A DNA stretch of 64,000 bases, from the NCBI RefSeq assembly GCF_000300855.1, contig NZ_ALJF01000019.1, forward strand, positions 1-64,000, in the 5' to 3' direction. The notes below the pieces were generated by a model that was not told where the DNA came from, searched no databases, and saw only the letters and a list, made by a program, of their open reading frames with translations. Positions 38,700 to 56,680 of this stretch are shown here, in pieces. Each line of letters begins with the position of its first letter. The first letter of the stretch is position 1. The position numbers and the translations under genes were made by a program. This DNA is from Agrobacterium albertimagni AOL15 (GTDB taxonomy: Bacteria; Pseudomonadota; Alphaproteobacteria; Rhizobiales; Rhizobiaceae).

Positions 38700-39692
38700 A
38701 TGCAGAAACTGCTCAAAAATCGTGAAATGCTGCTGGCCCTGATCATCATAGGCATGATCCTGAGCTTCACCACGCGCGCACCCAATTTCGCGTCTCCTGC
38801 TAACCTTGCGAACATCTTCAACGACACCTCGATCCTGATCATTCTGGCACTTGGCCAGATGGTCGTTATCCTGACCAAGTCGATCGATCTCTCGGTTGCC
38901 GCCAATCTCGCCTTTACCGGCATGGCGGTCGCCATGCTCGACAGCGCCTATCCGGGCCTGCCGCTCGCACTCCTCGTGCTCATTGCAATCGGCATCGGCG
39001 CAGCGCTGGGCGCGATCAATGGCTTCCTCGTCTGGGCCCTGCAGATCCCGCCGATCGTTGTCACGCTCGGCACGCTCACCATCTATCGCGGCATGAGTTT
39101 TGTGCTCTCGGGTGGCGCATGGGTGAATGCACACCAGATGCAGCCAGACTTTCTGGGCGTGCCGCGTCTGCCGGTGCTGGGCTTGCCGATCCTCTCCTGG
39201 GTCGCGATCGCAGTCATCCTGCTGGTCGGCTTCATCCTCGCCCGCACCCCCTTCGGCCGCTCGACCTATGCAGCAGGCGGCAATCCGGTCGCTGCCATCT
39301 ATGCCGGCATTGATGTCGGTCGCGCCCGCTTCCTCGCCTTCGTCCTCTCGGGCGCGCTCGCCGGCCTCTCCGGTTACCTCTGGGTGTCGCGTTATGCCGT
39401 CGCCTATGTCGATATCGCCGCCGGCTTCGAACTCGACAGCGTCGCCGCCTGCGTCATCGGCGGCATCTCGATTGCGGGTGGCATCGGCACCGTGATTGGC
39501 ACGGTCTTGGGCGCCCTCTTCCTCGGGGTCATCAAGAATGCGCTCCCCGTCATCGGCATTTCGCCCTTCGCCCAAATGGCGATCTCGGGCATCGTCATCG
39601 TGCTCGCCGTCGTCTTCAACGCCCGCGCCGAGCGCAAGAAGGGCCGTATCATCCTGCGCGACCGAGCAGCCGGAAAGGAGGCGACGGCATGA
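38700..39692 (+). CDS. rhaP: Rhamnose ABC transporter permease
   Basis: A 330-residue inner-membrane permease (RbsC-like) with eight to ten helices. VILTKSIDLSVAANLAFTGM is the conserved N-terminal signature and YAAGGNPVAAIYAGIDVGR is the cytoplasmic loop contacting the ATPase. The ORF also has an ATG at 38694, but GAGGA lies immediately before it, so 38700 fits the ribosome site better. The stop overlaps the rhaQ start (ATGA). Confidence 0.87.
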   Translation: MQKLLKNREMLLALIIIGMILSFTTRAPNFASPANLANIFNDTSILIILALGQMVVILTKSIDLSVAANLAFTGMAVAMLDSAYPGLPLALLVLIAIGIGAALGAINGFLVWALQIPPIVVTLGTLTIYRGMSFVLSGGAWVNAHQMQPDFLGVPRLPVLGLPILSWVAIAVILLVGFILARTPFGRSTYAAGGNPVAAIYAGIDVGRARFLAFVLSGALAGLSGYLWVSRYAVAYVDIAAGFELDSVAACVIGGISIAGGIGTVIGTVLGALFLGVIKNALPVIGISPFAQMAISGIVIVLAVVFNARAERKKGRIILRDRAAGKEATA

Positions 39693-40699
39693 GCACTGCA
39701 ACCGAACAGACCAAGCGCGTCATTCCCGACCGTCTCGAAACACCCTTCCGGCGTCTCCTCGGCAGCTGGGAAGTTCTGCTCTTCTGCGTGGCGGTGTTGA
39801 TCTTCATCGCGAACTCGATGGCCTCGCCCTACTTTTTGAATGCCTGGAACCTGTCGGACGCCACTTTCAACTTCACGGAAAAGGCGCTGATTGCCTTTGC
39901 CATGGCGCTTCTGATCATCGCCGGCGAGATCGACCTTTCGGTTGCCGCGATCATCGCGCTTGCCTCGACTGCCATGGGTTATGCTGCCCAACTCGGCGTC
40001 GGGGCACCCGGTCTGGTCGCGATCGGGATCACCACCGGCCTTGCCTGCGGCGCCTTCAACGGCCTGCTCGTTGCTGGCCTGAAGCTCCCCTCGATCGTCG
40101 TCACCATCGGCACGATGAGCCTCTTTCGCGGCATTTCCTATCTGGTCCTGGGCGACCAGGCCTTCGGCAAATACCCTGCGGACTTCGCCTTCTTCGGCCA
40201 GGGCTATGTCTTCTGGGTCATATCCTTCGAGTTCGTCCTCTTTCTGGTGGTGGCACTGCTCTTCGCCATCCTCCTGCACCGGACGAATTTCGGCCGCCAT
40301 GTCTATGTGATCGGCATGAACCCGCTGGCGGCCCGCTTCTCCGGCATTCCGGTCGAACGCGTGAAGTTTATCCTCTTCCTGCTGACCGGGCTGATGAGCG
40401 GCATCGCTGCCGTTTGCCTCACCTCCCGTCTCGGCTCCACCCGCCCCTCGATTGCCCAGGGCTGGGAGCTTGAAGTCGTCACCATGGTCGTGCTCGGCGG
40501 CGTCTCCATCCTCGGTGGATCCGGCACCATCGTCGGCGTCGTCATCGCCGCCTTTGTCATGGGCCTCGTCACCTTCGGCCTCGGACTTCTCAACGTGCCC
40601 GGCATCGTCATGTCGATCTTCATAGGCCTGCTCTTGATCATCACGATTGCCCTGCCGATCGTGGCCCGGCGGATCAAGCATGCGAGGAACGCACAATGA
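39689..40699 (+). CDS. rhaQ: Rhamnose ABC transporter permease
   Basis: The second RbsC-type permease of the system, 336 residues. [21 protein letters not shown] is the family signature and [20 protein letters not shown] the ATPase-contact loop. It pairs with RhaP to form the channel. AAGGAGG lies inside the rhaP 3' end, so both are cotranslated. The TGA at the end overlaps the rhaU ATG by four bases. Confidence 0.9.
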
Positions 40700-41019
40700 G
40701 CGAGACCGAACGCCACGTCTTCAAGATGAAACTCAATCCGGGCATGGAAGCGGAATACCGCAAGCGCCATGATGAGATTTGGCCCGATCTCGTCGACCTG
40801 CTGCATGACGCCGGCATCAGCGACTACACGATCTATCTCGATCCGGAGACCAGCCTTCTGATCGGCGTTCTCACGCGCACATTGACGCACAAGATGGCCG
40901 ACCTACCCTCTCACCCCGTGATGAAGCGCTGGTGGGCGCATATGGCCGACATCATGGCAACGAACGCGGACAGTTCACCCTGGGCCGTCGACCTGAAACC
41001 AGTCTTCCATATGCCATGA
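40696..41019 (+). CDS. rhaU: L-rhamnose mutarotase
   Basis: A 107-residue small enzyme that interconverts alpha- and beta-L-rhamnose. Typical RhaM/RhaU stretches are [32 protein letters not shown] and [15 protein letters not shown], which supply the active-site His and Tyr. The start overlaps the rhaQ stop (ATGA) and its own stop overlaps the rhaK start (ATGA), so the RhaQ, RhaU and RhaK proteins are tightly coupled. The family is unambiguous. Confidence 0.92.
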
Positions 41020-42392
41020 ACCAATCCTTCGAACGCATAGCCGTCATCGACGTCGGAAAGACGAATGCCAAAGTGGTCCTCGTCGATGGAAGGACCGGCA
41101 CCGAACTGGCCGTGCGAAAAACGGCAAACCGGGTCATCCCCGGCCCGCCCTATCCGCATTTCGACATAGAGGCCCTCTGGGCGTTCATGCTGAGGTCTCT
41201 GAAGGAATTCGCTGCCGGCCCCGGCTTCGACGCCCTGTCGATCACCACGCATGGCGCATCGGCAGCCCTGCTGAACAACGAGGGCGGCCTTGCCCTTCCG
41301 GTATTGGACTACGAACATCTCTACCCGGACGCCATAACCGAAACCTATGGAAAGCTTCGGCCGGATTTTTCGGAGACTTTCTCGCCAGCTCTCACCGGGG
41401 GCCTCAATGTCGGCGCGCAGCTGCACTATCAGAGGACAACGTTCCCGGACCAGTTCGACAAGGTCGCAACGATCCTCACCTATCCGCAGTACTGGGCATA
41501 TCGCCTGACGGGTGTTCCCGCCAACGAGCGGACCTCGCTTGGTTGCCACACCGATCTCTGGCATCCGTTTGAGGGTGGATATTCGGATCTGGTCGACACA
41601 CTTCATATCCGCGAGCGGATGGCACCCCTGCGCTCCGCTTTCGATGCCCTCGGGCTCATCAGACGGGAAGTGGCCGACGCCATCGGGTTAAACGTCCCGG
41701 TGCCCGTCTATTGCGGCCTCCACGATTCCAACGCGTCGCTATTGCCGCATCTCGTCGGCTTCGGCAGCCCATGCACTGTCGTCTCGACGGGAACTTGGGT
41801 GATCTGCTTCGGCGTCGGCGCCAAGCCGCAAAGACTGGATCCTTCGCGCGATACGCTGGTCAATGTCGACGCCAACGGTCATGCCGTTCCCTCGTCCCGC
41901 TTCATGGGTGGCCGCGAATGGGACCTTCTCACCCGTGACTTGGCGCCCGTCGCGATGGAAGAGGAATTGGTCACCGCCGCTGCAACGGTGATCGAAGCAG
42001 GTTCGATGCTCCTTCCAAGCGTGGTGACGGGGACCGGCCCTTTCCCGAATTCGCATGTCCGTTGGCTCAACGAGCCGCAGACTGCAGCCGAACGACTGGC
42101 TGCGGCCAGCCTCTACGAAGCCCTGATGACCCAGACCTGCCTCGACCTCATCGAGGCAGAGGGGCCGATCATCGTCGAGGGTCCATTTGCCGCCAATCAA
42201 CTCTATCTTCGAGCGCTCCACACGCTGACGAAGCGCCCGGTGCACGTATCGGAGTCGAGCACCGGCACGGCGATCGGCGCGGCCCTTCTGACCGGGATCA
42301 CGCTTGACGTCAAAATGCGGAGCATCAACAACGTGCTCGACGGGCTGGAGGATTATGCTCGGGAGTGGCGATCAAGGGCCGGCGAGCACTAG
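41016..42392 (+). CDS. rhaK: Rhizobial rhamnulose kinase (FGGY-type)
   Basis: A 458-residue FGGY sugar kinase that in rhizobia is needed both for rhamnose phosphorylation and for activity of the rhamnose transporter. Motifs are the N-terminal [16 protein letters not shown] phosphate loop, [11 protein letters not shown], a STGTW loop near 265, and a second phosphate loop. The frame is open back to 40932; the ATG at 41016 overlaps the rhaU TGA and gives the expected length. It is the last gene of the operon; I saw no terminator after it. Confidence 0.88.
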
Positions 42393-42457
42393 TCCGTCAC
42401 GCAGACGATCAACCGCAGAAAATCAACGTCTCTTCGCTGATTGGATCTTATGGGAGC

Positions 42458-42592
42458 CTACAAGGTGACGATGAGCACCGCTATGAAGGCGATGGAAACA
42501 GTCGCGGCGGCCATTGCCACCCGCTGCCGGCAAGCCTCGACAGAACGCCGGGATTTGGGTTCACCGAACAACTTCGCGATGGCATGTGACAT
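42458..42592 (-). CDS. Small single-pass membrane protein (44 aa)
   Basis: A 44-residue protein starting MSHAIAKLFGEPKSRRS and ending in a hydrophobic helix (residues 26-44, MAAATVSIAFIAVLIVTL). Positive residues in the first part suggest an inside N-terminus with the C-terminus in the membrane. The ATG at 42592 has AAGGAG (42604-42599 on the minus strand) six bases upstream. Such a good ribosome site in an otherwise geneless 500-base gap argues for a real gene. I do not recognise the family. A stem-loop precedes the ribosome site. The other 300 bases to the DMT gene contain only its promoter region and the operator at 42846. Confidence 0.5.
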   Translation of the reverse strand: MSHAIAKLFGEPKSRRSVEACRQRVAMAAATVSIAFIAVLIVTL

Positions 42593-42609
42593 GGCCGTCT
42601 CCTTCGAAC

Positions 42610-42628
42610 GGAGCCACTCATTGGCTCC
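42610..42628 (-). repeat. Stem-loop upstream of the 44-aa gene
   Basis: GGAGCCA (42610-42616) and TGGCTCC (42622-42628) form a perfect 7-pair stem with a five-base loop, six bases upstream of the ribosome-binding AAGGAG. It may be part of the mRNA leader of the 44-residue gene. Confidence 0.45.
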
Positions 42629-42845
42629 GGCTGATATTGACACATTTTCGTCATAATCAACGCCGCGTCAACAATCACGACTAGATTGGTATTCTAAAGA
42701 TGGGCGGGTTCGGAAAATTCCTCTCTAGGGCGAGCCGGCTTGTCAGCGGATCTCGCCCAGCCAGGGCCATCAGCCAAGTCTTGAGCGAAACGGGATGCCT
42801 GTGGACTTGTCAATCGACGGCCCATCAGCCAATACAACTGTTGAA

Positions 42846-42856
42846 TTGTCAGACAA
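42846..42856. promoter_or_regulatory. Candidate GntR/FadR-type operator
   Basis: TTGTCAGACAA is a perfect 5+1+5 palindrome containing the FadR-subfamily core GT-N3-AC, 38 bases before the DMT transporter start. Near-identical sites lie before the xylX-like and denD-like genes. A possible -35 TTGTCA (42807-42812) places it close to the transcription start. Confidence 0.5.
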
Positions 42857-42894
42857 CATGACAGACGACAGTCGTACGCTTGTAAGGAGGAGCC

Positions 42895-43824
42895 ATGACA
42901 ACGCACACGACAGATGAGGCTTCTCGAAGGGGACTGGGACTCGCCGGGATGGCAGGCCCCGCGGTCATGCTGCTCGGCATGCTGCTCTTTGCGATGAACG
43001 ATGCCATGGGCAAATGGCTGGTGGCAAGTTACGGCCTGGGTCAGGTCATCCTGATCCGTAGCATTGCCGCACTTCTGATCCTCGCCCCCTTTCTCTGGAT
43101 GGCCGGCCGGAAACCGATCCTGGAGGCGGAGCGACCCTGGCTGCAGTTCATGCGCGTCGTTTTCTCGACACTGGAACTCTTCTGTTTCTACTATGCGGTC
43201 ATGTATCTGCCGCTGGCCGATGTCATGACCTACTGGCTCGCAGCGCCAATCTATGTGGCAGCGGCGGCGCCCTTCCTGCTTGGAGAAAAGGTCGGCTGGC
43301 GGCGCTGGACGGCGATTGCCCTCGGCTTCATCGGGGTCGTGATCACGCTCGAGCCATCAAGCGCCATGTTCACCGCGCCCGCGCTGATCTCGATCATCGG
43401 CACCGCGGCCTTTGCCTTCATGATGCTCTCCGGCCGCAGCCTGCGCGGCACGCCGGATAAGACGCTGGTACTCTTCCAGACGGGTGGCGCCGCGGTGATC
43501 GGCCTCGTTGCCGCCCCCTTCGGCTGGACACCGATCACGTCGGCAAATGAAATCCTGTTGCTGGGACTTCTCGGCATCGTCGCCATGAGCGCCCATATGC
43601 TGGTCAACCGCGCCTTGAAGATCTCGGACGCCGCGACCGTCGCGCCGCTCCAGTACACCCTGCTGCTATGGGCTGTTGTCTTCGGCTATTTCTTCTTCGG
43701 CGAAGTGCCTCGATTGACCATGATCGTCGGTGCAACGCTCATCGTCGGTTCGGGCCTGTTCATCTTCTTCCGTGAGCAGCAATTGAAGAAGCGGGACAAG
43801 GTCCTGCCCTCCGTCCCAGAATGA
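42895..43824 (+). CDS. EamA-type (DMT family) transporter
   Basis: A 309-residue membrane protein with ten predicted helices in two EamA halves (the second begins near residue 160, APALISIIGTAAFAFMML). DMT exporters and importers move amino acids, sugars or their derivatives. The ATG follows AAGGAGGAG. It is not in a run with other transport genes, but its promoter carries the same palindrome as the sugar-acid cluster, which suggests it is a member of that regulon. A strong terminator follows and separates it from the convergent TRAP operon. Substrate unknown. Confidence 0.82.
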   Translation: MTTHTTDEASRRGLGLAGMAGPAVMLLGMLLFAMNDAMGKWLVASYGLGQVILIRSIAALLILAPFLWMAGRKPILEAERPWLQFMRVVFSTLELFCFYYAVMYLPLADVMTYWLAAPIYVAAAAPFLLGEKVGWRRWTAIALGFIGVVITLEPSSAMFTAPALISIIGTAAFAFMMLSGRSLRGTPDKTLVLFQTGGAAVIGLVAAPFGWTPITSANEILLLGLLGIVAMSAHMLVNRALKISDAATVAPLQYTLLLWAVVFGYFFFGEVPRLTMIVGATLIVGSGLFIFFREQQLKKRDKVLPSVPE

Positions 43825-43833
43825 TCAACTAAA

Positions 43834-43865
43834 AAGCCCGCAGCGGTCTCCCGCTGCGGGCTTCT
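43834..43865. terminator. Bidirectional terminator between the DMT and TRAP genes
   Basis: AAGCCCGCAGCGG (43834-43846) and CCGCTGCGGGCTT (43851-43863) form a 13-pair stem with loop TCTC, flanked by an A-run on the left and CTTCTTCT on the right. Confidence 0.88.
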
Positions 43866-43902
43866 TCTGGTGCGGCGCCCAAGGGCGCCACGACCAGGGA
43901 GG

Positions 43903-44907
43903 TCACTTACGGACTTCGGCGAGCTTGGCGAGAATATCGTCAACCACTTCAGCGCCGATCGTGTCCTTGTGCTTTTCATAGACGACCATGGACTTTTCGC
44001 GGATGCGCTGCTGCTCTTCCGGCGAAAGCGTGTTCACCTCGAGGCCAGCTGCCTTGATCTTCTCCAGCGACTGCTTGTTGAGGTCGGCGATAACCGAACG
44101 CTCGACGTCGCGACCAACCGTTGCGCATTCACGCAATGCTGCCTGCTCTTCCGGCGTATAGGTGTCGAAGATCGCCTTGGAGAAGAGGAAAAGGAACGGC
44201 GTGTAGGCGTGGTTCGTCTCGGTGACGTATTTCTGCACCTCGAAGAACTTCGAGGTATCGATCGTCACATAGGGGTTTTCCTGGGCATCGATGGTCTTGG
44301 TTTCAAGCGCCGAGAAGACTTCGCCAAATGCCATCGGGGTGGCGTTTGCGCCGAGGTTCTGGAAGGTATCGAGGAAGATGTTGTTCTGCATGACGCGAAC
44401 CTTCATCCCTTCGAAATCTTCCCACTTCGTCACCGGACGCACCGAGTTCGACAGGTTGCGGAAACCGTTCTCCCAGTAACCGAGATTCACGAGGCCAACG
44501 GCTTCGAGCTTCTGGTTCATCATCTCGCCGAATTCGCCGTCGAGCACCTGATAGGCCTCATCAGCGGAGCCGAACAGGAACGGCAGGTCGAAGACGCCGA
44601 GCGCCGGCTCGATGCCGACGAGCGGCGAGGACGACGTGACGACGGCTTCCTGCACGCCGGACCGCAGAGCCTGCGTCGCCTGAAGGTCGCCACCGAGGGC
44701 ACCGCCCCAGAATGCCTGCAGCTTCAGCTTGCCACCGGACTTCTCGTCCAGGCACGACTGCATGGCTTCGATGCCGTTACCAACCGGGTGATCGGCATTG
44801 ATGCCGTTCGATACGCGGATGGTGCGATCGTTGAACTCGGCGAATGCCGGAACGGCTCCGGAAACGGCGAATGCCAGTGCTGTTGTTGCGAGTAGTGTCT
44901 TCCTCAT
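43903..44907 (-). CDS. TRAP transporter substrate-binding protein (DctP type)
   Basis: A 334-residue periplasmic binding protein with a signal peptide (1-23, cut after AFA). DctP landmarks are RVSNGINADHPVGNG and the WEDFEGMKVRVMQNN stretch carrying the conserved Arg that grips the substrate carboxylate. Carboxylate (aldonate or uronate) is the expected ligand. The frame is open to 45045; the ATG at 44907 gives the normal N-terminus. It is the last gene of the minus-strand xylX-like - dctQ - dctM - dctP run. Confidence 0.88.
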   Translation of the reverse strand: MRKTLLATTALAFAVSGAVPAFAEFNDRTIRVSNGINADHPVGNGIEAMQSCLDEKSGGKLKLQAFWGGALGGDLQATQALRSGVQEAVVTSSSPLVGIEPALGVFDLPFLFGSADEAYQVLDGEFGEMMNQKLEAVGLVNLGYWENGFRNLSNSVRPVTKWEDFEGMKVRVMQNNIFLDTFQNLGANATPMAFGEVFSALETKTIDAQENPYVTIDTSKFFEVQKYVTETNHAYTPFLFLFSKAIFDTYTPEEQAALRECATVGRDVERSVIADLNKQSLEKIKAAGLEVNTLSPEEQQRIREKSMVVYEKHKDTIGAEVVDDILAKLAEVRK

Positions 44908-44953
44908 GGTGTATCCTCCCTTGGATTTTAATGAGTGGGTTGAACTTCGTTCA

Positions 44954-46231
44954 TCACCGTAGCCATTGCGCCGGCACGATGACGATGTCGGGAAATATGA
45001 CGAGCAGCACGAGAACCAGCACCTGCGCGAGCAGGAATGGAACAATGCCCGTCACGACTTTGCCAAGCGGGACGCGCCCGACCCCGCTGACCACGTTGAG
45101 CACCACGCCGACGGGCGGGGTGATCAAGCCAATGCAGCAGTTCATGATGAACATGACACCGAAATAGACCGGGTCGATGCCCGCCTGCTTGATGATCGGC
45201 ATCAGCACAGGCGTCAGGATCAGGATGGTCGGCGTCAGGTCCAATGCGGTTCCGACGACGAGAACCAGCGCCATGATGACGAACATCAGCAGCATCGGCC
45301 GATCGATCAGGGGTTCGATATAGCGCGTGATCTCGCCGGGAATGTTGGCTGCAGTGATCAACCAGGCGGAGACCAGGGCCGCGCACACCAGGAACATGAT
45401 GATCGAGGTGGTCTTGGCCGCCTGCAGGATGACACGCGGAAGATCCTTTGGCTTAAGCTCGCGATAGATCACCATGCCGACGAACATGGCATAGGCAGCC
45501 GCAATGACAGCCGCTTCCGTTGGCGTGACCACCCCGGCCTTGATCCCGCCAAGGATGATCACCGGCATGCCGAGCGCCCAGGCGGCACGCCCGGTGACGC
45601 GCAGCCGCTCTTTCGCTGGCGCCTTCGGCAAGGGCAGCACGTTGTCCTTGCGAACAACGATTTGCCAGGCAATGACCAGCGCGATCCCCATCAACATGCC
45701 GGGCACGATCCCCGCCATGAAGAGCTGTGTGATCGAGACATTCGCAGCAACACCGAAGACGATAAACGCCATCGACGGCGGGATGACGGGTGCGATGATG
45801 CCCCCGGATGCAATCAGGCCGGCAGAGCGCGGCACGTTGTATCCCGCCTTGGCCATCATCGGGATCAGGATCGCGGCCAAAGCTGCGGTATCGGCAGCGG
45901 CCGAACCGGAAATGCTGGCCATGATCACGGCAGCCATGATGGCGACGATGCCGAGGCCGCCGCGAATATGCCCCACGCAGGCAATCGCGAACTCGATGAT
46001 GCGCCGCGACAGGCCGCCAGAATTCATCAGCTCTCCGGCCAACACGAAGAACGGGATGGCGAGCAGCGTGAACGTATCGGCGCCCGCGATCATGTTCTGC
46101 GCTATGATCTGGCTGTTGAACATGCCCATGTACCACATGAGCGTGACGCCGCAGAACATCAGCGCGAAGGCGACGGGGACGCCAATGGCCATGGCGCCGA
46201 GCAGCGAGGTGATGAAGACGACAAGGGTCAT
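44954..46231 (-). CDS. TRAP transporter large permease (DctM type)
   Basis: A 425-residue protein with about twelve hydrophobic helices, typical of DctM/SiaM large subunits, with conserved GLSRRIIEFA and PPSMAFIVFG stretches. It forms the secondary-transport channel that uses a Na+ or H+ gradient. Its start overlaps the dctQ stop by one base. Neighbours indicate import of a sugar acid. Confidence 0.9.
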   Translation of the reverse strand: MTLVVFITSLLGAMAIGVPVAFALMFCGVTLMWYMGMFNSQIIAQNMIAGADTFTLLAIPFFVLAGELMNSGGLSRRIIEFAIACVGHIRGGLGIVAIMAAVIMASISGSAAADTAALAAILIPMMAKAGYNVPRSAGLIASGGIIAPVIPPSMAFIVFGVAANVSITQLFMAGIVPGMLMGIALVIAWQIVVRKDNVLPLPKAPAKERLRVTGRAAWALGMPVIILGGIKAGVVTPTEAAVIAAAYAMFVGMVIYRELKPKDLPRVILQAAKTTSIIMFLVCAALVSAWLITAANIPGEITRYIEPLIDRPMLLMFVIMALVLVVGTALDLTPTILILTPVLMPIIKQAGIDPVYFGVMFIMNCCIGLITPPVGVVLNVVSGVGRVPLGKVVTGIVPFLLAQVLVLVLLVIFPDIVIVPAQWLR

Positions 46232-46764
46232 CAGGCGCGCTCCACCAGCTTCTCGATGCCGTGGTGTTCGCCTGCAAAGGCTGCGATTTCACTCTCGGTG
46301 ACACGCCCGGTGACCAGACGGAAGAGGCGTTCGAGCGCAATCAGGCTGCAGCCGGCACCCGTGAAGAAGCCGATGCCGTAGACCCAGCCCATGGAGAGCC
46401 CGGTCACTGGTGCACTCATGCTGGCATTGATCGGCAACTGCTTCCAGGTTCCCCAGAAGAAGATGGCAGAAACGCCGAGGATCAGGAGATTGGAAAGGAT
46501 CATGCAGAGGACCCGGCCCCGCCGACCGAACAGGGCCACCAGGCTTTCAACGCCCATATGGCCATATTCGCGAAAGCCGACGACCGCGCCAATGAAGGTC
46601 AACCAAACGAAGAAATAGCGGGCCATTTCATCCGAGACCGTGAGGCCGGAGTTGAAGCCGTAGCGCAAGACGACGTTGACGAACACCATGACCGCCATGC
46701 CCGACAAGAGCAGGATCAGCAGCAGTTCAAGCAGCTTGTAGAAGAGATCGACAACTCTGGTCAT
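46231..46764 (-). CDS. TRAP transporter small permease (DctQ type)
   Basis: A 177-residue protein with four helices. The NVVLRYGFNSGLTVSDEMARYF stretch (given in part: NVVLRYGFNSG) and WLTFIGAVVGFREYGHMGV are DctQ hallmarks. It is the scaffold partner of the large permease. It begins six bases after the xylX-like stop, so it is cotranscribed with that catabolic gene. Confidence 0.88.
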   Translation of the reverse strand: MTRVVDLFYKLLELLLILLLSGMAVMVFVNVVLRYGFNSGLTVSDEMARYFFVWLTFIGAVVGFREYGHMGVESLVALFGRRGRVLCMILSNLLILGVSAIFFWGTWKQLPINASMSAPVTGLSMGWVYGIGFFTGAGCSLIALERLFRLVTGRVTESEIAAFAGEHHGIEKLVERA

Positions 46765-46770
46765 ACGCCC

Positions 46771-47940
46771 TCACGCCTTGTCGAGCAGGCCGCGCTGGGC
46801 CAGGTTGCGGAAAAGAGCACGTGTTCCGAAGGTCCATTCCGGGCAGGCGTCCGTGCGATCGACCCAGTTCACCAGGCGACCAAGCGTCGGTGTCGCGATC
46901 TCGACGCGATCGCCAACCTCATGCGTGAAGCCAAGGCCAGCACCACGGCGATCCTTGACCGGCGCGAACATGGTGCCGAGGAACAGAACCGCGCCATCGG
47001 GATATTGGTGATTGCGGTTACGCAACTGCGCAACAAGGTTTTCCGGCGCACGGCTGATCGCTTCCATCGGACTTTCCCCCGTCATTTCAAAGCCGTCCTC
47101 GCCGCGTACGAGCAGCGAAACGCGAACCTTGCGCAGCACGTCCATCGTGAAGCTGCCATGGAAAAGCCGGACGAAGGGCCCTATCGAGCACGATGCATTG
47201 TTGTCCTTCGCCTTCCCCAGGAGCAGCGCCGACCGCCCCTCGACATCCCTCAGATTGACGTCGTTGCCGAGTGTCGCGCCGATGATCTTGCCGTCGGAAC
47301 GAACGGCAAGAACGATTTCAGGCTCAGGATTGTTCCATTGGGAAATGGGGTGAATGCCGACTGAATCGCCACAGGTCACCGACGACATGGGCTGGGCCTT
47401 GGTGAAGATCTCCGCATCCGGGCCGATACCGACCTCCAGGTACTGAGACCAGAGACCCATATCCTGCAGCAGCGCTTTAACCTTCGCTGCCTGCTCGGAG
47501 CCGGCGACGAGCCCACGCAGGCTGTCGCCCAGCACGGGTGCCAGCTTCTCGCGGATCGCCTGGGCACGGCCGGCATCGCCCTTCGCCTGCTCCTCGATCA
47601 CCCGCTCCAGCATGCTGTCGGCGAATGTCACACCGGCAGCCTTGACCGCTTGCAGATCGATGGGAGCAAGCAGATGACCGGCCTCGCCGGACAGGAACTG
47701 GTCGAGCGCGCCAAGAGACGGCAGGCTCTCGTCAGCCACCAAGCGCTCGGCGAGATCGTCCAACTCGAATAGGCCGGAAGCTGTAGGAGAAATGCTTGTC
47801 AGGTCGCAGAGGGTGCCATGGCGCACGATCACCGGGCAGGGACCGCCGGCCGCCTTCGACCACACTCTGCCCACCAGCACAGCCTGGGAGGAATCTTCCG
47901 GCAGAATATAGACGGATTCGAGACTTTGACGGCGCTGCAA
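46771..47940 (-). CDS. FAH-family 2-keto-3-deoxy-aldonate dehydratase (XylX-like)
   Basis: A 389-residue fumarylacetoacetase-family protein. Its length and the stretches SQYLEVGIGPDAEIFTK, NNPEPEIVLA, GNDVNLRDVEGRSALLLGKA and HQYPDGAVLFLGTMFAP resemble Caulobacter XylX as I recall it, which dehydrates 2-keto-3-deoxy-D-xylonate to 2-oxoglutarate semialdehyde. Conserved acidic metal ligands are in NNPEPE and GNDVNLRD. The IlvD/Edd dehydratase at 52357, whose homologues make such keto-deoxy acids, is in the same cluster. The exact pentonate or hexonate is unproven. A candidate operator lies 60 bases upstream. Confidence 0.75.
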   Translation of the reverse strand: MQRRQSLESVYILPEDSSQAVLVGRVWSKAAGGPCPVIVRHGTLCDLTSISPTASGLFELDDLAERLVADESLPSLGALDQFLSGEAGHLLAPIDLQAVKAAGVTFADSMLERVIEEQAKGDAGRAQAIREKLAPVLGDSLRGLVAGSEQAAKVKALLQDMGLWSQYLEVGIGPDAEIFTKAQPMSSVTCGDSVGIHPISQWNNPEPEIVLAVRSDGKIIGATLGNDVNLRDVEGRSALLLGKAKDNNASCSIGPFVRLFHGSFTMDVLRKVRVSLLVRGEDGFEMTGESPMEAISRAPENLVAQLRNRNHQYPDGAVLFLGTMFAPVKDRRGAGLGFTHEVGDRVEIATPTLGRLVNWVDRTDACPEWTFGTRALFRNLAQRGLLDKA

Positions 47941-47999
47941 GATGGACCTCCTCCTTGTCCTCCGGCATGAACGACCCTGTCGCCTGCCATATTGTCAGG

Positions 48000-48010
48000 A
48001 TGTCTGACAA
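48000..48010. promoter_or_regulatory. Candidate GntR operator before the xylX-like gene
   Basis: The minus strand reads TTGTCAGACAT, one base off the palindrome TTGTCAGACAA. A further half site, TTGTCAG, is at 47992-47998 on the plus strand, so the region forms a wider inverted repeat TTGTCAG / CTGACAA. Confidence 0.5.
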
Positions 48011-48097
48011 CTCTTAATCCGAATTAATAGGGTCAGATTTGATGCCTGTCTACCCCGGACGACGGACTTGTGGACAAAGCTGCCGCACGAGACCGTC

Positions 48098-48826
48098 TCA
48101 GAACTGCTCGAGGCTGAGATCGATGCGGCTTGCCGCACCGTGCAGATGCGCGCGCATGGCCTCGCGTGCGCCAGCACCGTCCCGCTTGGCGATCGCGTCT
48201 CTCAGCCGGACGTGTTCGGCAATGGTCACTTCGACGATTTCTTCGAGCACGGCGCGGGAGCGTGCCGCATCAATCGCCAGGCTGATGCGCTCGGCGATGA
48301 AGCCGATAAACAGGGCGAAATACTCGTTGTGCGTCGCCTCGGCGACCGCGCGGTGGAAGGCGAGATCGGCGACGATCCCCTGCTCCGTCCACTTTTCGGC
48401 CCCCGTCATGCGCGACAGCGCCTCGTCTATCTTTGCGAGATCCTCTGAGGTGTGATGCACGGCGGCAAGACCCGCGGCTTCGATTTCAAGCGGCACGCGC
48501 AGCTGAAAGAGCGCGCGAAAACTTTGCGGCTCGGAGAGCTCGCCATCCTTGATGCGGATCGGTCTGGCCGAAGGTTCGCTGACGAAAGCCCCCACGCCTT
48601 GCCTCGTCTCCACCATGCCTTCGTTCCGCAACTGGGCAATGGCCTCGCGCACGACAGAGCGGCTGACGCCGAGTGTCTTGGCCAGAACATGCTCGGTCGG
48701 CAATCGCTCGCCGGGCTTCAAGCGCCCCTGGCTGATCTCGTCGGCCAATTGCGCGGCAATTCGGGCGGGCAGGTGCTCACTGCGCCTGATCTGTCCGAAA
48801 TTCAATTGCCCGAGGTCGATCGACAT
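48098..48826 (-). CDS. FadR-subfamily GntR regulator
   Basis: A 242-residue regulator. The N-terminal winged helix covers about residues 15-80 (RIAAQLADEISQGRLKPGER and VLAKTLGVSRSVVREAIAQL). The C-terminal FCD domain has metal-binding candidates in ADLAFHRAVA and EHVRLRDAI plus RAHLHG. FCD regulators usually sense carboxylic or sugar acids. The ATG at 48826 has AAGGAGA ten bases upstream and is preferred over 48874. It lies between the FAD dehydrogenase and the xylX-like gene, and the palindromes TTGTCAGACAA around the cluster are its likely targets. Confidence 0.87.
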   Translation of the reverse strand: MSIDLGQLNFGQIRRSEHLPARIAAQLADEISQGRLKPGERLPTEHVLAKTLGVSRSVVREAIAQLRNEGMVETRQGVGAFVSEPSARPIRIKDGELSEPQSFRALFQLRVPLEIEAAGLAAVHHTSEDLAKIDEALSRMTGAEKWTEQGIVADLAFHRAVAEATHNEYFALFIGFIAERISLAIDAARSRAVLEEIVEVTIAEHVRLRDAIAKRDGAGAREAMRAHLHGAASRIDLSLEQF

Positions 48827-48860
48827 GCCCGCTGGTCTCCTTGCCACCTGCTCCGGTATT

Positions 48861-50327
48861 TCACGAATCCGCACTCGAATTCAATTGGCAACCCGGGTTC
48901 ATGATCCCCGAGGGATCGATGGCCCGCTTGATCGCAGTCAGGAGATGTAGCTGCGTGGCCGGCACACGCGAGAGAAAATCCGGCTTCTTCAAGCGACCGA
49001 TACCATGCTCGGCGCTCATCGAACCCTGGAAACTATCCAGAACATCATTCACGACGTGCTTGGCCGTGTAGATACGCTCGGCCACCTCGTCCCTGGAAAG
49101 GCCAGAAGGCGGCAGCACGTTGAGATGCACGTTCCCGTCGCCGACATGACCATAGGAAACGCAGGTGCAATCCGGCAAGCGCGCTGCGATGGCTGCTTCC
49201 GCCTGTTCGACGAACTCCGGAAGACGCGACAAAGGCACAGACACATCCGTTCGAAGGTGTGGCCCCCGTTTGGCCTGCCCTTCATTCATGCCCTCGCGGA
49301 AGAGCCAGAGAGAACGGGCCTGGCTCCGCGACGTCGCAACGACGCCGTCCAGCACCAGGCCGTCCTCCAGCACGCCCTCAAGAAAGCGGTGCATCAGGTC
49401 TTCGATATCCACGAGGCCGGAACCCGAGATCTCGAGCAGTACATAGGCCGGATAATCGGCACTCATCGGCATGGCGAGATCGGGTATCGCTTCCTGCGCG
49501 AGGGTGAAAGCGATCGGCGGCATGAATTCGAAGGCCGACATGAGGTCACAGCAGTCGCGCCGTGCACGCCGATAGAGCGTGATCGCATCCGACAAAGCTC
49601 CGAGCCCCAGCAAAGCCGTCGCAACCTTCTCTGCCGGCGGAGCAAGCTTGAAGGCAGCGGCGGTGACGATGCCGAGCGTGCCCTCGGCCCCGATGAACAA
49701 CTGTTTCAGATCGATCCCGCGATTGTCCTTGCGCAGCGTCGACAGACCATCGAGGATCGACCCGTCGGGGAGAACGACCTCTAGGCCAAGCACGAGCTCA
49801 CGCGTCATGCCATAGCGCAACACGTTGATTCCGCCTGCATTGGTCGAGACATTGCCGCCGATCCGGCAGGAGCCCTGCGCACCGAGCGCAAGCGGAAAGT
49901 AGAGCCCTGCATCCTCGACCTTGTCCTTGAAGTCCTGCAGGATGGCGCCCGCCTCGACGACGGCCGAGAAATCATCTGCATCGATGCGGCGGATCGCCGT
50001 CATACGCTCGAGACTGACAACAACCTGGCTCGCCGGTGCGTCGGGAGTGCCTCCGAGAACCAGCCCCGTATTGCCGCCTTGCGGCACGATAGTCAGCCCC
50101 AGCGAGCGGATGGCCCGAACGGCAAGGGAGACCTCCTCGGTCGTTCGCGGACGGACAACCGCGACAGCACCGGTCGTGACATCCCCATGCCAATCCCGGC
50201 AGTAGCGCTCGACCTCCGCACCGACGACAACCATGTCAGGTCCGAGCGCCTCGATGAGACCAGGAACCGGGTTGCCCGCCCCGCTCCACAAATCCTTGCT
50301 CCCGATCGCGCTTTCCACGGCCATCAT
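48861..50327 (-). CDS. FAD-linked D-2-hydroxyacid dehydrogenase (GlcD/D2HGDH type)
   Basis: A 488-residue FAD-binding PCMH/oxidase-C family enzyme. FAD stretches are VPQGGNTGLVLGGTPDA and GRIGGNVSTNAGGINVLRYG; the C-terminal metal and substrate region has SYGHVGDGNVHLNV and EHGIGRLKKPDF. It would oxidise a D-2-hydroxy acid (glycolate, D-lactate, D-2-hydroxyglutarate or a sugar acid) and pass electrons to an acceptor. It starts 60 bases left of a palindromic operator shared with the divergent denD-like gene. The stop is 34 bases before the GntR gene, so they may share a transcript. Substrate not decided. Confidence 0.82.
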   Translation of the reverse strand: MMAVESAIGSKDLWSGAGNPVPGLIEALGPDMVVVGAEVERYCRDWHGDVTTGAVAVVRPRTTEEVSLAVRAIRSLGLTIVPQGGNTGLVLGGTPDAPASQVVVSLERMTAIRRIDADDFSAVVEAGAILQDFKDKVEDAGLYFPLALGAQGSCRIGGNVSTNAGGINVLRYGMTRELVLGLEVVLPDGSILDGLSTLRKDNRGIDLKQLFIGAEGTLGIVTAAAFKLAPPAEKVATALLGLGALSDAITLYRRARRDCCDLMSAFEFMPPIAFTLAQEAIPDLAMPMSADYPAYVLLEISGSGLVDIEDLMHRFLEGVLEDGLVLDGVVATSRSQARSLWLFREGMNEGQAKRGPHLRTDVSVPLSRLPEFVEQAEAAIAARLPDCTCVSYGHVGDGNVHLNVLPPSGLSRDEVAERIYTAKHVVNDVLDSFQGSMSAEHGIGRLKKPDFLSRVPATQLHLLTAIKRAIDPSGIMNPGCQLNSSADS

Positions 50328-50387
50328 CAGTCTCCCCGTCGGCCCATCTGGAGATGGACAAAGAATTCGGTTTCCACGAGAATGATA

Positions 50388-50408
50388 TAAGGTTATCAGA
50401 CAACCTTA
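50388..50408. promoter_or_regulatory. Candidate GntR operator in the divergent control region
   Basis: TAAGGTT (50388-50394) and AACCTTA (50402-50408) are perfect arms around ATCAGAC; inside lies TTATCAGACAA (50393-50403), one base from the palindrome at 42846. It serves the divergent FAD-dehydrogenase and denD-like promoters. Confidence 0.55.
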
Positions 50409-50481
50409 CAAATGGTTTTTGAAGAAGGCCCTTGTGCAGAGGCGCGCGGGGTCGAAGAATGACATGGGAGGAGACTGTCAC

Positions 50482-51465
50482 ATGCATATTCTGGTGATTG
50501 GCGCGGCCGGCATGGTCGGACGCAAGCTGGCGCAACGACTCACCCGCGATGGAGAACTGCAGGGACGGCAGATCACGGCGATGACGCTCGCCGATGTCGT
50601 GGCGGCCGACGCCCCCGCCGGCTTCGACGGCAAGGTGACGATCGAAGCCATCGATCTATCTGAGCCCGCATCCGCCGAGCGCCTGATCGCATCGCGCCCC
50701 GATGTCATCTTCCATCTCGCTGCGATCGTCTCTGGTGAAGCGGAACTCGACTTCGAAAAGGGTTACAAGATCAACCTCGACGGCACCCGCTATCTGTTCG
50801 AGGCAATCCGCCTCGCCCATATGGTGGACGGCTATTGCCCGCGTGTGGTCTTCACCTCGTCGATCGCGGTCGTCGGTGCACCACTGCCCTATCCGATCCC
50901 GGACGAGTTCCACACCACGCCGCTGACCAGCTACGGCACGCAGAAGGCGATTTGCGAACTGCTGCTCTCCGACTATTCCAGGAAGGGGTATTTCGACGGT
51001 ATCGGCATCCGCCTCCCGACGATCTGCATTCGCCCCGGCAAGCCGAACAAGGCAGCCTCGGGCTTCTTCTCCAACATCCTGCGCGAGCCGCTGGTCGGCC
51101 AGGAGGCAGTCTTGCCGGTCGGCGAGGATGTCCGCCACTGGCATGCCTCGCCCCGATCTGCGGTCGGCTTCCTCATCCACGGCGCAAACATCGACCTGGA
51201 AACGGTGGGCCCACGCCGCAACCTGTCGATGCCAGGCCTCAGCGCCACCGTTGGCGAGCAAATCGAAGCCCTGCGCCGCGTGGCAGGCGAGAAGGCGGTC
51301 AAACTCATCCGCCATGAGCCCGACGAGATGATCATGCGCATCTGCGCAGGCTGGGCTCCTGGCTTCGAAGCAACCCGCGCCCGCGCACTCGGCTTCACCG
51401 CCGAAAACTCTTTCGATGAAATCATTCGGGTGCATATCGACGATGAGCTGGGAGGCAAGCTTTGA
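50482..51465 (+). CDS. NAD-dependent epimerase/dehydrogenase, D-erythronate dehydrogenase (DenD)-like
   Basis: A 327-residue extended SDR protein. The cofactor motif is GAAGMVGRKL near residues 7-16, the catalytic Ser is in FTSSIAVVG, and YGTQKA gives the YxxxK pair. The IRLPTICIRPGKPNKAASGF stretch is typical of DenD-type proteins, which oxidise D-erythronate at C2 and allied 4-carbon sugar acids. The frame extends upstream to 50419, but GGGAGGAG precedes 50482 by normal spacing. It is the first gene of a three-gene plus-strand operon. The otnC/I/K partners of the known erythronate pathway are absent here, so another sugar acid is possible. Confidence 0.7.
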   Translation: MHILVIGAAGMVGRKLAQRLTRDGELQGRQITAMTLADVVAADAPAGFDGKVTIEAIDLSEPASAERLIASRPDVIFHLAAIVSGEAELDFEKGYKINLDGTRYLFEAIRLAHMVDGYCPRVVFTSSIAVVGAPLPYPIPDEFHTTPLTSYGTQKAICELLLSDYSRKGYFDGIGIRLPTICIRPGKPNKAASGFFSNILREPLVGQEAVLPVGEDVRHWHASPRSAVGFLIHGANIDLETVGPRRNLSMPGLSATVGEQIEALRRVAGEKAVKLIRHEPDEMIMRICAGWAPGFEATRARALGFTAENSFDEIIRVHIDDELGGKL

Positions 51466-52370
51466 CGGGAACGGAAAACAGGCAGATCGCCTTTCTCGGG
51501 ACGGGACTGATGGGCGCGCCCATGGCGAGGCGCCTGCTCGCGGCTGGTTTCCAAGTCACGGTGTGGAACCGCGATAGGGCCAAGGCAGAGCCTCTGGCGG
51601 CGGCCGGCGCCAGGCTTGCAGAGAGCCCGACAGACGCCGTCTCCGGCGCGAGCGTGATCTTCACCATGCTATCGGATGGCGCCGCGGTGGAAGACGTGCT
51701 TTTCACCAAGGGCGCGGCTGAAGCGCTGGCAAAGGGCACGGTCGTCATCGACACATCTTCGATCGCACCGCCAATCGCAAAAGATCACGCGAGCCGGCTC
51801 GCCGATCGCGACATCGCTCACGTCGATGCACCCGTGTCGGGTGGCGTCGTCGGGGCGGAAGCCGGCACGCTGGCAATCATGGCGGGCGGCGATGCCGATG
51901 TCATCGAGAGCTTGGCCGATGTCTTCGCACCGCTCGGCCGCGTCACCCATGTCGGCCCCTCGGGCGCTGGCCAGATCTGCAAGCTCGCCAACCAGCAAAT
52001 CGTCGCGATCACCATCGGCGCCGTTGCAGAGGCGATGATGCTCGTTGAAGCCGGCGGCGCATCGCGGGAGAAGTTTCGCGAAGCCATCCGCGGCGGCTTT
52101 GCCGAAAGCCGCATCCTGGAACTGCACGGACAACGGATGGTCGAGCGGCGCTTCGAGCCGGGCGGCCCCTCGCGCCTGCAGTTGAAGGACCTGAATGCCG
52201 TCGCCGCCATGGCCGAGACCTTTGGCCTTGAGCTTCCGTTGACCTCGGATGTTCGCCAGGCCTTTGAGGCCTTTGTTGCAGAAGGTCACGGCGAACTCGA
52301 CCACAGTGGCCTTCTGCTTCAACTGGAAAAAATCAACCACCGCAAAGGTGCCGCCGATGACCGAGTCTGA
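51462..52370 (+). CDS. NAD-dependent dehydrogenase, 3-hydroxyisobutyrate dehydrogenase family (TTG start)
   Basis: A 302-residue beta-hydroxyacid dehydrogenase. The Rossmann motif is FLGTGLMGAPMARRLL near residues 9-24, the substrate motif DAPVSGGVVGAEAGTL is near 121, and the catalytic Lys is in GQICKLANQQIV. The family includes L-threonate dehydrogenase (LtnD) and tartronate semialdehyde reductase. Translation appears to start at TTG (51462-51464), with GGAGG six bases upstream, overlapping the stop of the denD-like gene. It oxidises or reduces a hydroxy acid in the cluster's pathway; the substrate is not deducible. Confidence 0.8.
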   Translation: MTGTENRQIAFLGTGLMGAPMARRLLAAGFQVTVWNRDRAKAEPLAAAGARLAESPTDAVSGASVIFTMLSDGAAVEDVLFTKGAAEALAKGTVVIDTSSIAPPIAKDHASRLADRDIAHVDAPVSGGVVGAEAGTLAIMAGGDADVIESLADVFAPLGRVTHVGPSGAGQICKLANQQIVAITIGAVAEAMMLVEAGGASREKFREAIRGGFAESRILELHGQRMVERRFEPGGPSRLQLKDLNAVAAMAETFGLELPLTSDVRQAFEAFVAEGHGELDHSGLLLQLEKINHRKGAADDRV

Positions 52371-54141
52371 GAAACCGAAACGCCGCCTCCGCTCACAGGA
52401 CTGGTTCGACAATCCCGATCACCTCGACATGACCGCGCTCTACCTAGAGCGCTTCATGAACTACGGCACGACGCCGGAGGAACTGCGCTCCGGCAAGCCG
52501 ATCATCGGGATCGCCCAATCGGGCTCCGATATCAATCCCTGCAACCGACACCATCTGGAACTTGCCAAACGCGTGCGCGATGGTATCCGCGACGCCGGCG
52601 GCATTCCGATCGAGTTCCCGTCGCATCCGCTGTTCGAGAACTGCAAGCGACCGACGGCAGCCCTCGACCGCAACCTTGCCTATCTCGGCCTGGTCGAGTT
52701 GCTCTACGGCTATCCCTTCGACGGTGTCGTGCTGACGACCGGCTGCGACAAGACCACGCCCTCTGCCCTGATGGCGGCGTCGACGGTCGACCTCCCGGCC
52801 ATCGTGCTCTCCGGCGGGCCCATGCTTGACGGCTGGCATGATGGCGAACTGGTGGGTTCCGGCACGGTGATCTGGCGCTCTCGCCGCAAATATGCGGCCG
52901 GCGAGATCAGCCGCGAGGAATTCCTAGAGCGCGCCCTCGATTCGGCCCCCTCTCCCGGCCATTGCAATACCATGGGCACCGCGTCGACAATGAACGCTAT
53001 TGCCGAGGCACTCGGCATGTCGCTCACCGGCTGCGCTGCCATTCCGGCCGCCTATCGTGAACGCGGCCAGATGGCCTATCGCACGGGCAAGCGGGCGGTC
53101 GAACTCGTGCTTGAAGACATCCGCCCCTCGGACATTCTCACCCGCGACGCATTTCTCAATGCCATCAGGGTCAACTCAGCGATCGGCGGATCGACCAACG
53201 CCCAGCCGCATCTGATGGCCATGGCCAAGCATGCCGGCGTGGAACTCTTGCCCGAGGACTGGCAGGTTCACGGCTACGACATTCCGTTGCTCGCCAACGT
53301 CCAGCCGGCCGGCGCCTATCTCGGCGAGCGGTTCCACCGTGCCGGAGGTGTACCGGCAATCATGTGGGAGCTGATGCAGGCTGAAAAGCTCGACGCAAAC
53401 TGTCGCACGGTGACTGGCCGCACCATGGCTGAGAACCTGGAGGGAAGAGAGGCGACGGATCGGGAGGTGATCAAGCCCTACCACGAGCCGATGCGAGAAC
53501 GCGCGGGCTTCGTTGTGCTGAAGGGCAACCTCTTCGATTTTGCCATCATGAAGACGAGTGTCATTTCCGAGGGTTTCCGCCTGCGTTACCTACAGGAAAA
53601 GGGCCGCGAAGGCATCTTTGAGGGCCGCGCGATCGTCTTCGACGGCTCGGAGGATTACCACAAGCGCATCAACGATCCCGCCCTCGAGATCGACGAGGAC
53701 TGCGTTCTTGTCATCCGCGGCGCCGGCCCGCTTGGCTGGCCGGGCTCGGCCGAAGTGGTCAACATGCAGCCGCCGGATCACCTCATTAAGCGGGGCATCC
53801 TCAGCCTGCCGACGATTGGCGACGGCCGCCAGTCCGGCACGGCCGACAGCCCGTCGATCCTCAACGCATCGCCTGAAAGCGCGGCGGGCGGCGGTCTGGC
53901 CTGGGTGAGGACCGGAGACGTCATTCGCATCGACCTGAACCAGGGGCGTTGTGACATGCTGGTCGGCGACGAGGAAATCGCAAGGCGCAAGGCCGAGGGC
54001 ATTCCGCCCGTGCCGAAAGACGCAACACCATGGCAGCGGCTCTATCGCCAGACGGTCACCCAGCTAGCCGATGGTGCGACGATCAAAAACGCCGAGGATT
54101 TCCGTCAGATCTCCAAGACGCCGCCGCGCCACAACCACTGA
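52357..54141 (+). CDS. IlvD/Edd-family sugar-acid dehydratase (xylonate/arabinonate type)
   Basis: A 594-residue [Fe-S] dehydratase. Cluster ligand cysteines are in NPCNRHH, TTGCDKTTP and GHCNTMGTAS, the three-cysteine pattern of the group that dehydrates aldonates to 2-keto-3-deoxy acids. The N-terminal RRRLRSQDWFDNPDHLDMT and SGSDINPCNRHHLELAKRV resemble rhizobial and Caulobacter XylD/AraC. The frame is open from 52249; the ATG at 52357 fits the family and overlaps the upstream gene by 14 bases. Together with the XylX-like protein it would give a Weimberg-type route to 2-oxoglutarate semialdehyde. Substrate chain length is inferred. Confidence 0.82.
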   Translation: MTESEKPKRRLRSQDWFDNPDHLDMTALYLERFMNYGTTPEELRSGKPIIGIAQSGSDINPCNRHHLELAKRVRDGIRDAGGIPIEFPSHPLFENCKRPTAALDRNLAYLGLVELLYGYPFDGVVLTTGCDKTTPSALMAASTVDLPAIVLSGGPMLDGWHDGELVGSGTVIWRSRRKYAAGEISREEFLERALDSAPSPGHCNTMGTASTMNAIAEALGMSLTGCAAIPAAYRERGQMAYRTGKRAVELVLEDIRPSDILTRDAFLNAIRVNSAIGGSTNAQPHLMAMAKHAGVELLPEDWQVHGYDIPLLANVQPAGAYLGERFHRAGGVPAIMWELMQAEKLDANCRTVTGRTMAENLEGREATDREVIKPYHEPMRERAGFVVLKGNLFDFAIMKTSVISEGFRLRYLQEKGREGIFEGRAIVFDGSEDYHKRINDPALEIDEDCVLVIRGAGPLGWPGSAEVVNMQPPDHLIKRGILSLPTIGDGRQSGTADSPSILNASPESAAGGGLAWVRTGDVIRIDLNQGRCDMLVGDEEIARRKAEGIPPVPKDATPWQRLYRQTVTQLADGATIKNAEDFRQISKTPPRHNH

Positions 54142-56531: not shown

Positions 56532-56680
56532 GCGGCCATTTAAAAAAATTTTGACGAATGGCAATTTTGAAATGCGAAGACCGCCAGAGACCAGCCATAT
56601 CAGGCAATAGACACGCAAACGTGTTTGTCTTATCTGACAAGACTTGAAGCCGTAACGCGAAGCTCAAGGCACCCGGATAT

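Follow-up and report, generated by a model that had tools for sequence, protein, structure and literature searches.

Does a shared palindromic operator join a sugar-acid gene cluster and a neighboring transporter gene into one regulon? The question is raised by a 64,000-nt stretch of Agrobacterium albertimagni AOL15 contig NZ_ALJF01000019.1 (the window; its genome is labelled G000), to which all unprefixed coordinates refer. An original prediction, made from the letters of this stretch, had singled out an 11-bp palindrome, TTGTCAGACAA, upstream of a DMT transporter gene and near-copies of it beside a cluster that contains a FadR-type GntR regulator gene. The 11-bp palindrome proved to be the core of a 19-bp operator, TTRTCAGACAWCCTKACAA, composed of two inverted half-sites and a third half-site. 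Because a near-identical site precedes both halves of the cluster and also the transporter gene (the latter in this bacterium and its close relatives), a single local, DhdR-like GntR repressor very probably controls all three units through the 19-bp operator as an aldonate regulon. The finding is real and well supported at the sequence level, and it represents an ordinary, known kind of gene control. The sites and genes concerned are as follows.

42846-42864, plus strand: DMT operator TTGTCAGACAACATGACAG, 31-49 bp upstream of the DMT start codon, containing the exact 11-mer.
42895-43824, plus strand: DMT/EamA transporter (Pfam EamA).
43903-44913, minus strand: DctP, TRAP solute-binding protein (family models; closest solved chain 7bbr).
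44954-46231, minus strand: DctM, TRAP large permease (family models).
46231-46764, minus strand: DctQ, TRAP small permease (family models).
46771-47940, minus strand: FAH-family protein, probably a 2-keto-3-deoxyaldonate dehydratase, XylX-like (Pfam FAA_hydrolase, barely over the cut-off).
47992-48010, minus strand: FAH-TRAP operator TTGTCAGACATCCTGACAA, in the gntR-FAH gap, 52-70 bp upstream of the FAH open reading frame (ORF).
48098-48874, minus strand: FadR-type GntR regulator (GntR plus FCD), the proposed repressor (Pfam, predicted structure, nearest PDB entry DhdR).
48861-50327, minus strand: FAD dehydrogenase (FADdh) of the D-2-hydroxyglutarate dehydrogenase type, overlapping gntR.
50393-50411, plus strand: denD/FADdh operator TTATCAGACAACCTTACAA, between the predicted divergent FADdh-gntR and denD transcripts.
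50482-51465, plus strand: DenD-like NAD dehydrogenase (D-erythronate dehydrogenase model NF043036, 379 bits versus a cut-off of 325).
51462-52370, plus strand: beta-hydroxyacid dehydrogenase (HIBADH), tartronate semialdehyde reductase/LtnD-like, under the cut-offs of those models.
52357-54141, plus strand: IlvD/Edd sugar-acid dehydratase (two broad subfamily models passed; 5oyn, 1044 bits).

The 11-mer was re-found exactly at 42846-42856, as were the one-mismatch copies predicted at 48000-48010 (minus strand) and 50393-50403 (plus strand). A further one-mismatch copy, overlooked originally, lies at 56630-56640, and one more appears at 63878 when the center base is left free. With a free center, the 64 kb contain five palindromes at zero or one mismatch compared to 1.30 expected, a count reached by 2 of 100 shuffles. 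Across the genome (5.085 Mb), 111 such palindromes were found versus 129 for the reversed pattern, so there is no enrichment; the resulting rate of ∼1.4 per 64 kb agrees with the approximately two chance hits estimated at the outset, and 10 copies of the exact 11-mer are present. Since it lacks genome-wide enrichment, the 11-mer alone is weak evidence, and we rejected it as the unit of evidence, also because two exact copies (C1:101465 and 106792) border another cluster. A chance origin, which would yield an 11-bp palindrome once or twice per 64 kb and is in line with the genome-wide counts, is nevertheless refuted for the two cluster sites by the conservation results given below, and we assign it a negligible probability. 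The evidential support is provided by the 19-bp extension and its conservation, not by the 11-mer alone.

Alignment of relatives delimited the conserved block as 19 bp, namely TTATCAGACAACCTTACAA upstream of denD and TTGTCAGACATCCTGACAA upstream of the FAH gene, and the bases that had been called mismatched are fixed bases of this block. The third half-site (KACAA) is centered 11 nt from the core center, within the 7-12 nt range for extra GntR half-sites. By a weight matrix derived from 37 training sites (17 FAH and 20 denD, window excluded), the three window sites score 35.4, 33.5, and 23.0, the last being the DMT site, which departs from the 19-bp consensus at positions 13 and 19; the highest value in 40 simulated 64-kb sequences was 18.2. 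The whole genome contains four matches to TTRTCAGACAWCCTKACAA at up to two mismatches, comprising the three named sites and C6:148544, along with three further matches at three mismatches, whereas the reversed control gave none at three. The C6:148544 match (two mismatches) was rejected as an operator because it falls within an open frame of 2013 bases whose product looks by eye like a chemoreceptor. Likewise, the 56630 copy, situated between what by eye are two divergent PAS-type histidine-kinase-like genes, was rejected with a matrix score of 6.6 and probably arose by chance.

Orthologous clusters were sought in 297 family genomes with the GntR gene as the query. Matches at E 1e-50 or better were obtained in 38 genomes, 22 of them (including that of the window) at 61% identity or more, and stretches of 10.7-19.9 kb were compared for 37 of the 38, all except the window's own. 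Within the orthologous group of 21 loci (L046-L066), TTATCAGACAA is located upstream of denD in 20 of 20 denD genes, and the palindrome precedes the FAH gene at up to one mismatch in 18 of 20 cases and at two mismatches in the other two. A scan of named genomes, for which the best 80 of 189 relatives were kept, covered Rhizobium, Peteryoungia, Allorhizobium, Neorhizobium, Sinorhizobium/Ensifer, Ciceribacter, Brucella, Ochrobactrum, Pannonibacter, and others. The denD site scored at least 25 in 79 of these 80 loci and the FAH site in 72 of 73 that could be assessed, with L131 (denD, 18.7) and L151 (FAH, 21.6) as the exceptions; when the 12 loci also used in training were omitted, the values were 67 of 68 and 61 of 62, respectively. 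None of the control regions upstream of the HIBADH (68), IlvD (60), and DctP (74) genes reached 16.5, nor did any of those left after removing training loci (57, 50, and 63); the bare 11-mer at up to one mismatch occurs in 0, 0, and 1 of the full control sets (68, 60, and 74). Thus, conservation upstream of orthologues, which the original prediction had named as one of its tests, was found to be nearly complete for both cluster sites. The two sites also stay with their genes under rearrangement (L062, L063, and L066; G295): where the FAH-TRAP genes stand behind denD (L063 and L066) or on another contig (G295 C20), they have their own operator copy, that of L063 being two mismatches from the 11-mer.

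The 19 bp are nearly invariant position by position, although position 14 varies at the denD site. In the third half-site, positions 15-18 are invariant in 73 of 73 FAH sites and position 19 in 72 of 73; at denD, positions 15-17 are invariant in 80 of 80 sites, and positions 18 and 19 in 79 of 80 each. Such blocks might be core promoter elements rather than operators, and at denD the conservation indeed runs on into promoter-like sequence (GTTTTCAA, TATAAGG), while the site itself lies within a promoter-like TTGTAA-18-TATCAT of the minus strand (50411 to 50382); these pairs are consensus matches only, with 4 found versus 1.8 expected in that scan. At the FAH gene, however, the same 19-bp motif has flanks that are near random past one extra base, and in many aligned relatives it is seen by eye just downstream of promoter-like elements. 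The motif, moreover, is found before genes of differing orientation and agrees with a GntR operator defined by footprinting, which makes a purely promoter-based explanation highly unlikely.

Which protein would read these sites? On its domains and predicted fold, the regulator at 48098 is a member of the FadR subfamily of GntR proteins, with a six-helix C-terminal domain and a GT-N3-AC core nearby. An N-terminal winged helix (GntR domain PF00392, 75.2 bits, residues 37-98) is followed by a C-terminal FCD domain (PF07729, 84.5 bits), and the structure predicted from ten sequences (mean pLDDT 79.3, pTM 0.58) has six C-terminal helices of at least 12 residues, in line with the six or seven helices that make up the C-terminal domain in this subfamily. 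DhdR is the nearest solved structure both by predicted fold (whole-chain TM-scores 0.52-0.64) and by sequence. The FadR-type assignment made originally is therefore upheld, as is the fit of the GT-N3-AC core to such a protein, the TTGTCAGACAA-type core being conserved near gntR. Asp147, His151, His198, and His220 (numbered by the first alignment row) are invariant in 10 of 10 aligned GntR orthologues, a set that we take to be the pattern of metal-binding FCD domains. The 19-mer was found at up to one mismatch in 24 of the 297 genomes, comprising 21 of the 22 with an orthologous GntR and 3 of the 275 others (G044, G205, and G275, one hit each); the sole miss, G294, carries a more divergent copy, and the reversed 19-mer is present in 0 of 297.

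Sister GntRs (44-54% identity) have SRN in place of SRS in the recognition helix, and TTGTCCTACAA or TTATCCTACAA cores are found in sister loci L068, L069, L071, L072, and L078; by eye, TTGTAGGATGA was seen upstream of FADdh in L067, L073, L075, L076, L077, and L081. An Asn at position 39 of the helix-turn-helix prefers A/T at the inner operator positions, according to the available text of PMC4494728. The covariation of SRN and site appears to run in this published Asn-39 direction, position 39 being our own mapping of the residue. A different transcription factor could bind all three sites with gntR as a mere neighbor, given the many loose GntR candidates in the genome (62 at first look) and that GntR binding is predicted only. 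Such a case is very unlikely in view of the co-occurrence of site and gntR across genomes, the concerted change of recognition helix and site between the two clades, and the operator of DhdR, which is one base from the denD site.

DhdR of Achromobacter denitrificans is a D-2-hydroxyglutarate-responsive repressor of dhdR-d2hgdh, and the region that it protects contains GTTATCAGATAAC (PMC8651671, available text). On the plus strand, GTTATCAGACAAC at 50392-50404, most of which is included in the 50393-50411 operator, agrees with GTTATCAGATAAC at 12 of 13 positions; the other two window sites agree at 10 of 13 each, and nowhere else in the window are 11 reached. As in the DhdR system, gntR stands beside a putative D-2-hydroxyglutarate dehydrogenase-type gene and the site overlaps a promoter, or here promoter-like sequence (PMC8651671, same text). 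In contrast to that system, the genes under the sites include those for a TRAP importer, an FAH-family enzyme, DenD, a beta-hydroxyacid dehydrogenase, and IlvD, and the operator possesses a conserved third half-site. LhgR, a GntR protein of Pseudomonas putida W619, protects TTGTCTGACAA, which is TTGTCAGACAA on the other strand; unlike the window sites, the LhgR site precedes an L-2-hydroxyglutarate oxidase gene, and the available text of that report (PMC8206213) describes no TRAP or aldonate genes there. The sites also resemble those of the FadR subfamily surveyed by Suvorova et al. in 2015, in which a GT-N3-AC palindrome has an adjacent half-site 7-12 nt from its center and a single site in a divergon controls both operons (PMC4494728, available text). 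In that survey the extra box is described as weaker and its role was left open, whereas the extra half-site here is about as invariant as the core. The regulon of the window is not described in the available text of PMC4494728, and no paper on it was found by title in the literature searched.

We propose that GntR (48098-48874) binds TTRTCAGACAWCCTKACAA at the three places and blocks transcription until an acidic metabolite of the pathway releases it; relief of repression by an acidic metabolite is the usual mode of FadR-type regulators. Site 50393-50411 would govern the divergent FADdh-gntR and denD-HIBADH-ilvD units, site 47992-48010 FAH-dctQMP, and site 42846-42864 the DMT transporter. Because the first of these lies between the FADdh-gntR and denD transcripts, gntR is expected to be autoregulated, and because it falls within the promoter-like pair of FADdh-gntR, binding there would repress gntR and probably denD too. 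We tentatively consider an obligate three-half-site operator, with two GntR dimers, or a dimer and a second protomer, occupying the pair and the third half-site; this arrangement is possible, though on balance doubtful, and it would make the bare 11-bp palindrome elsewhere in the genome insufficient.

The transporter gene was originally regarded as an outlier, but in relatives DMT is a frequent convergent neighbor of dctP. The expectation of a shared palindrome upstream of orthologues held across nearly all orthologous clusters for both cluster sites and only in some lineages for the DMT site. Among the 11 closest named loci (GntR identity of at least 86%, DMT assessable), nine have TTGTCNGACAACATGACAR at up to one mismatch, eight of them at −49 to −55 and L139 at −249, and the other two have it at three mismatches; most of the remaining intergenic sequence has diverged across these loci, some of which are from close pairs of genomes. 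For close relatives, these nine loci contradict the lack of DMT-site conservation suggested by the first sample. The next relatives (L141, L143, L145, and L150) have no DMT site at two mismatches. In L142, L188, L189, L190, and L198, a TTGTCNGACAACATGACAR-type site is situated upstream of MR-DMT, where MR is an enolase-superfamily dehydratase of the mandelate racemase type, and in L149, L173, and L201 it is upstream of SDR-hydrolase, with or without MR, and then DMT. Of the controls for the DMT pattern, the reversed one gave 0 hits at four mismatches, and the opposite strand had none at three mismatches but 3 at four.

The DMT site belongs to an operon that in some relatives includes MR and in a few SDR plus hydrolase. 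No close relative of MR was found in the window genome (best 32%), whereas a hydrolase relative (80%) is encoded on another contig (C3:10361), with no 19-mer at up to three mismatches on contig C3; BLAST detected no MR, SDR, or hydrolase remnants in window positions 42391-42950 at E 1 or better. From the absence of MR, the survival of the hydrolase, and the gene order in relatives, we infer that the operator probably came to adjoin DMT directly upon loss of MR. The region adjoining the DMT gene (38694-42392) encodes, as named by eye, two sugar ABC permeases, a rhamnose-mutarotase-like protein, and an FGGY-type kinase.

A second cluster of this genome is likewise bordered by bare TTGTCTGACAA sites. 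There, two palindrome pairs of this 11-bp type (L125:3466-3597 and 8793-8925, corresponding to G000 C1:101465-101596 and 106792-106924; spacing 121-122 bp within each pair) surround a periplasmic binding protein, an ABC ATPase, and a GntR-like ORF at L125:8031-8897 (by eye), and this cluster may represent a GntR regulon of its own, in which the operators are paired and perhaps form loops.

On the basis of the DenD cut-off, the match of IlvD to 5oyn and of the FAH protein to 2q18, and the sugar-acid binder nearest to DctP, the gene set as a whole is likely to form an aldonate route, as had been suggested originally. DenD passes its specific curated cut-off; for the TRAP subunits and IlvD, the models passed are broad subfamily ones. 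The best chain for IlvD, 5oyn, is titled just "Dehydratase, IlvD/Edd family" and is presumably the Caulobacter xylonate dehydratase; IlvD scores below the D-xylonate (YjhG/YagF) and L-arabinonate equivalog cut-offs. The FAH protein, with no NCBIfam match, matches 9kkt (FAH family protein) and 2q18 (2-keto-3-deoxy-D-arabinonate dehydratase). FADdh matches 3pm9 and, at 299 bits, the D-2-hydroxyglutarate dehydrogenase 6lpn; neither FADdh nor the beta-hydroxyacid dehydrogenase passes any of the listed models. The nearest DctP structure (7bbr) is a sugar-acid binder.

We propose that the regulon serves to import and break down an aldonate; the likeliest case is uptake of a C5-C6 aldonate by the TRAP transporter. 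The dehydrogenases would oxidize the aldonate or epimerize it at C2 through a keto acid, IlvD would yield a 2-keto-3-deoxyaldonate, and the FAH enzyme may dehydrate the latter to alpha-ketoglutarate semialdehyde. Alpha-ketoglutarate semialdehyde dehydrogenase is missing among the cluster genes, and alpha-ketoglutarate could be formed by a dehydrogenase encoded elsewhere (G000 C2:107099), which is 76% identical to the aldehyde dehydrogenase following ilvD in L048, L049, and L051. A one-mismatch 11-mer upstream of it (C2:106538) was rejected as an operator, since it lies inside an ORF that looks Gfo/Idh/MocA-like by eye. The substrate-level claim is the weakest part of the analysis. The combination of IlvD/Edd and FAH-superfamily dehydratases resembles Weimberg-type, non-phosphorylative pathways, in which IlvD/Edd pentonate dehydratases and FAH-superfamily 2-keto-3-deoxypentonate dehydratases lead to alpha-ketoglutarate semialdehyde (PMC6336799, available text). 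Unlike those pathways, the cluster includes FAD-, DenD-, and beta-hydroxyacid dehydrogenases as extra enzymes, and the ten cluster genes examined encode neither an aldose dehydrogenase nor a lactonase.

Related loci display several variations on this gene content. L210 (G000 C2:103500-111500) contains a second IlvD-type dehydratase along with, by eye, a Gfo/Idh/MocA dehydrogenase, the aldehyde dehydrogenase just mentioned, a sugar-acid kinase, and an aldolase; it is probably an aldose oxidation cluster and could furnish the last step of the window pathway. In L063, L066, L193, L206, and L207, an MR-type dehydratase takes the usual place of ilvD in the denD operon, an apparent non-orthologous replacement, with genes for a gluconate-5-dehydrogenase-like SDR and a gluconokinase-like protein coming after gntR. 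A larger island in the genus of L048, L049, and L051 (from the same genomes as L149, L148, and L173, respectively) carries an aldehyde dehydrogenase gene behind ilvD and further genes for an aldolase, a second enzyme of the enolase superfamily, a dehydrogenase of Gfo/Idh/MocA-like type, and a lactonase-like protein, with palindromes also at the aldolase and second dehydratase genes.

Several observations weigh against a single regulon of this scope. Because the genomes are related, the conservation tallies cannot be treated as independent. Identity between GntR and DhdR reaches only about one third (33-38% per aligned chain), and half of the 16 sister-clade loci (L067, L070, L073, L076, L077, L079, L080, and L081) yield no site with a simple pattern. 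Apart from DenD, the enzymes were assigned by broad models. None of the 11 DMT orthologues of the first sample, including that of the same-genus genome G237, has the DMT site within 220 bp, and just 17 of the 61 loci that could be assessed have it within 4 kb upstream at up to two mismatches. Across the 297 genomes of the family, the DMT pattern is exact in 4, all with GntR, a co-occurrence that is largely circular because the pattern was drawn from three of these four holders; at one mismatch it is found in 3 genomes without GntR, where the hits are in or at long coding frames and none is near cluster genes. Finally, the C1 cluster with its GntR-like ORF (by eye) bears the bare 11-mer in the same genome.

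In an alternative reading, the cluster sites are GntR operators and the DMT site is a relict or is read by another regulator, leaving DMT outside the regulon in this bacterium. The two departures of the DMT site from consensus, its restriction to certain lineages, and the bare TTGTCTGACAA sites around the C1 cluster would suit such an account. On the other hand, the DMT site is the only one of the 10 exact genomic 11-mers that matches the 19-mer at up to three mismatches, and it is held at −49 to −55 with up to one mismatch in 8 of the 11 closest relatives amid mostly diverged surroundings. We therefore regard the alternative as unlikely and favor control of all three units by the local GntR repressor.

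What had been an 11-letter coincidence can now be described as a regulon whose regulator, operator, and three transcription units are open to testing across many Rhizobiaceae and their relatives. The repressor and the binding protein provide a route into an aldonate pathway without an assigned substrate. The lineage-limited DMT operator suggests how a gene may remain in a regulon after its operon has been trimmed. The nearly invariant third half-site makes testable the question of extra GntR boxes raised in the 2015 survey (PMC4494728, available text), and if the three-half-site operator is obligate, the additional box would be a specificity device that separates paralogous GntR regulons with a common core.

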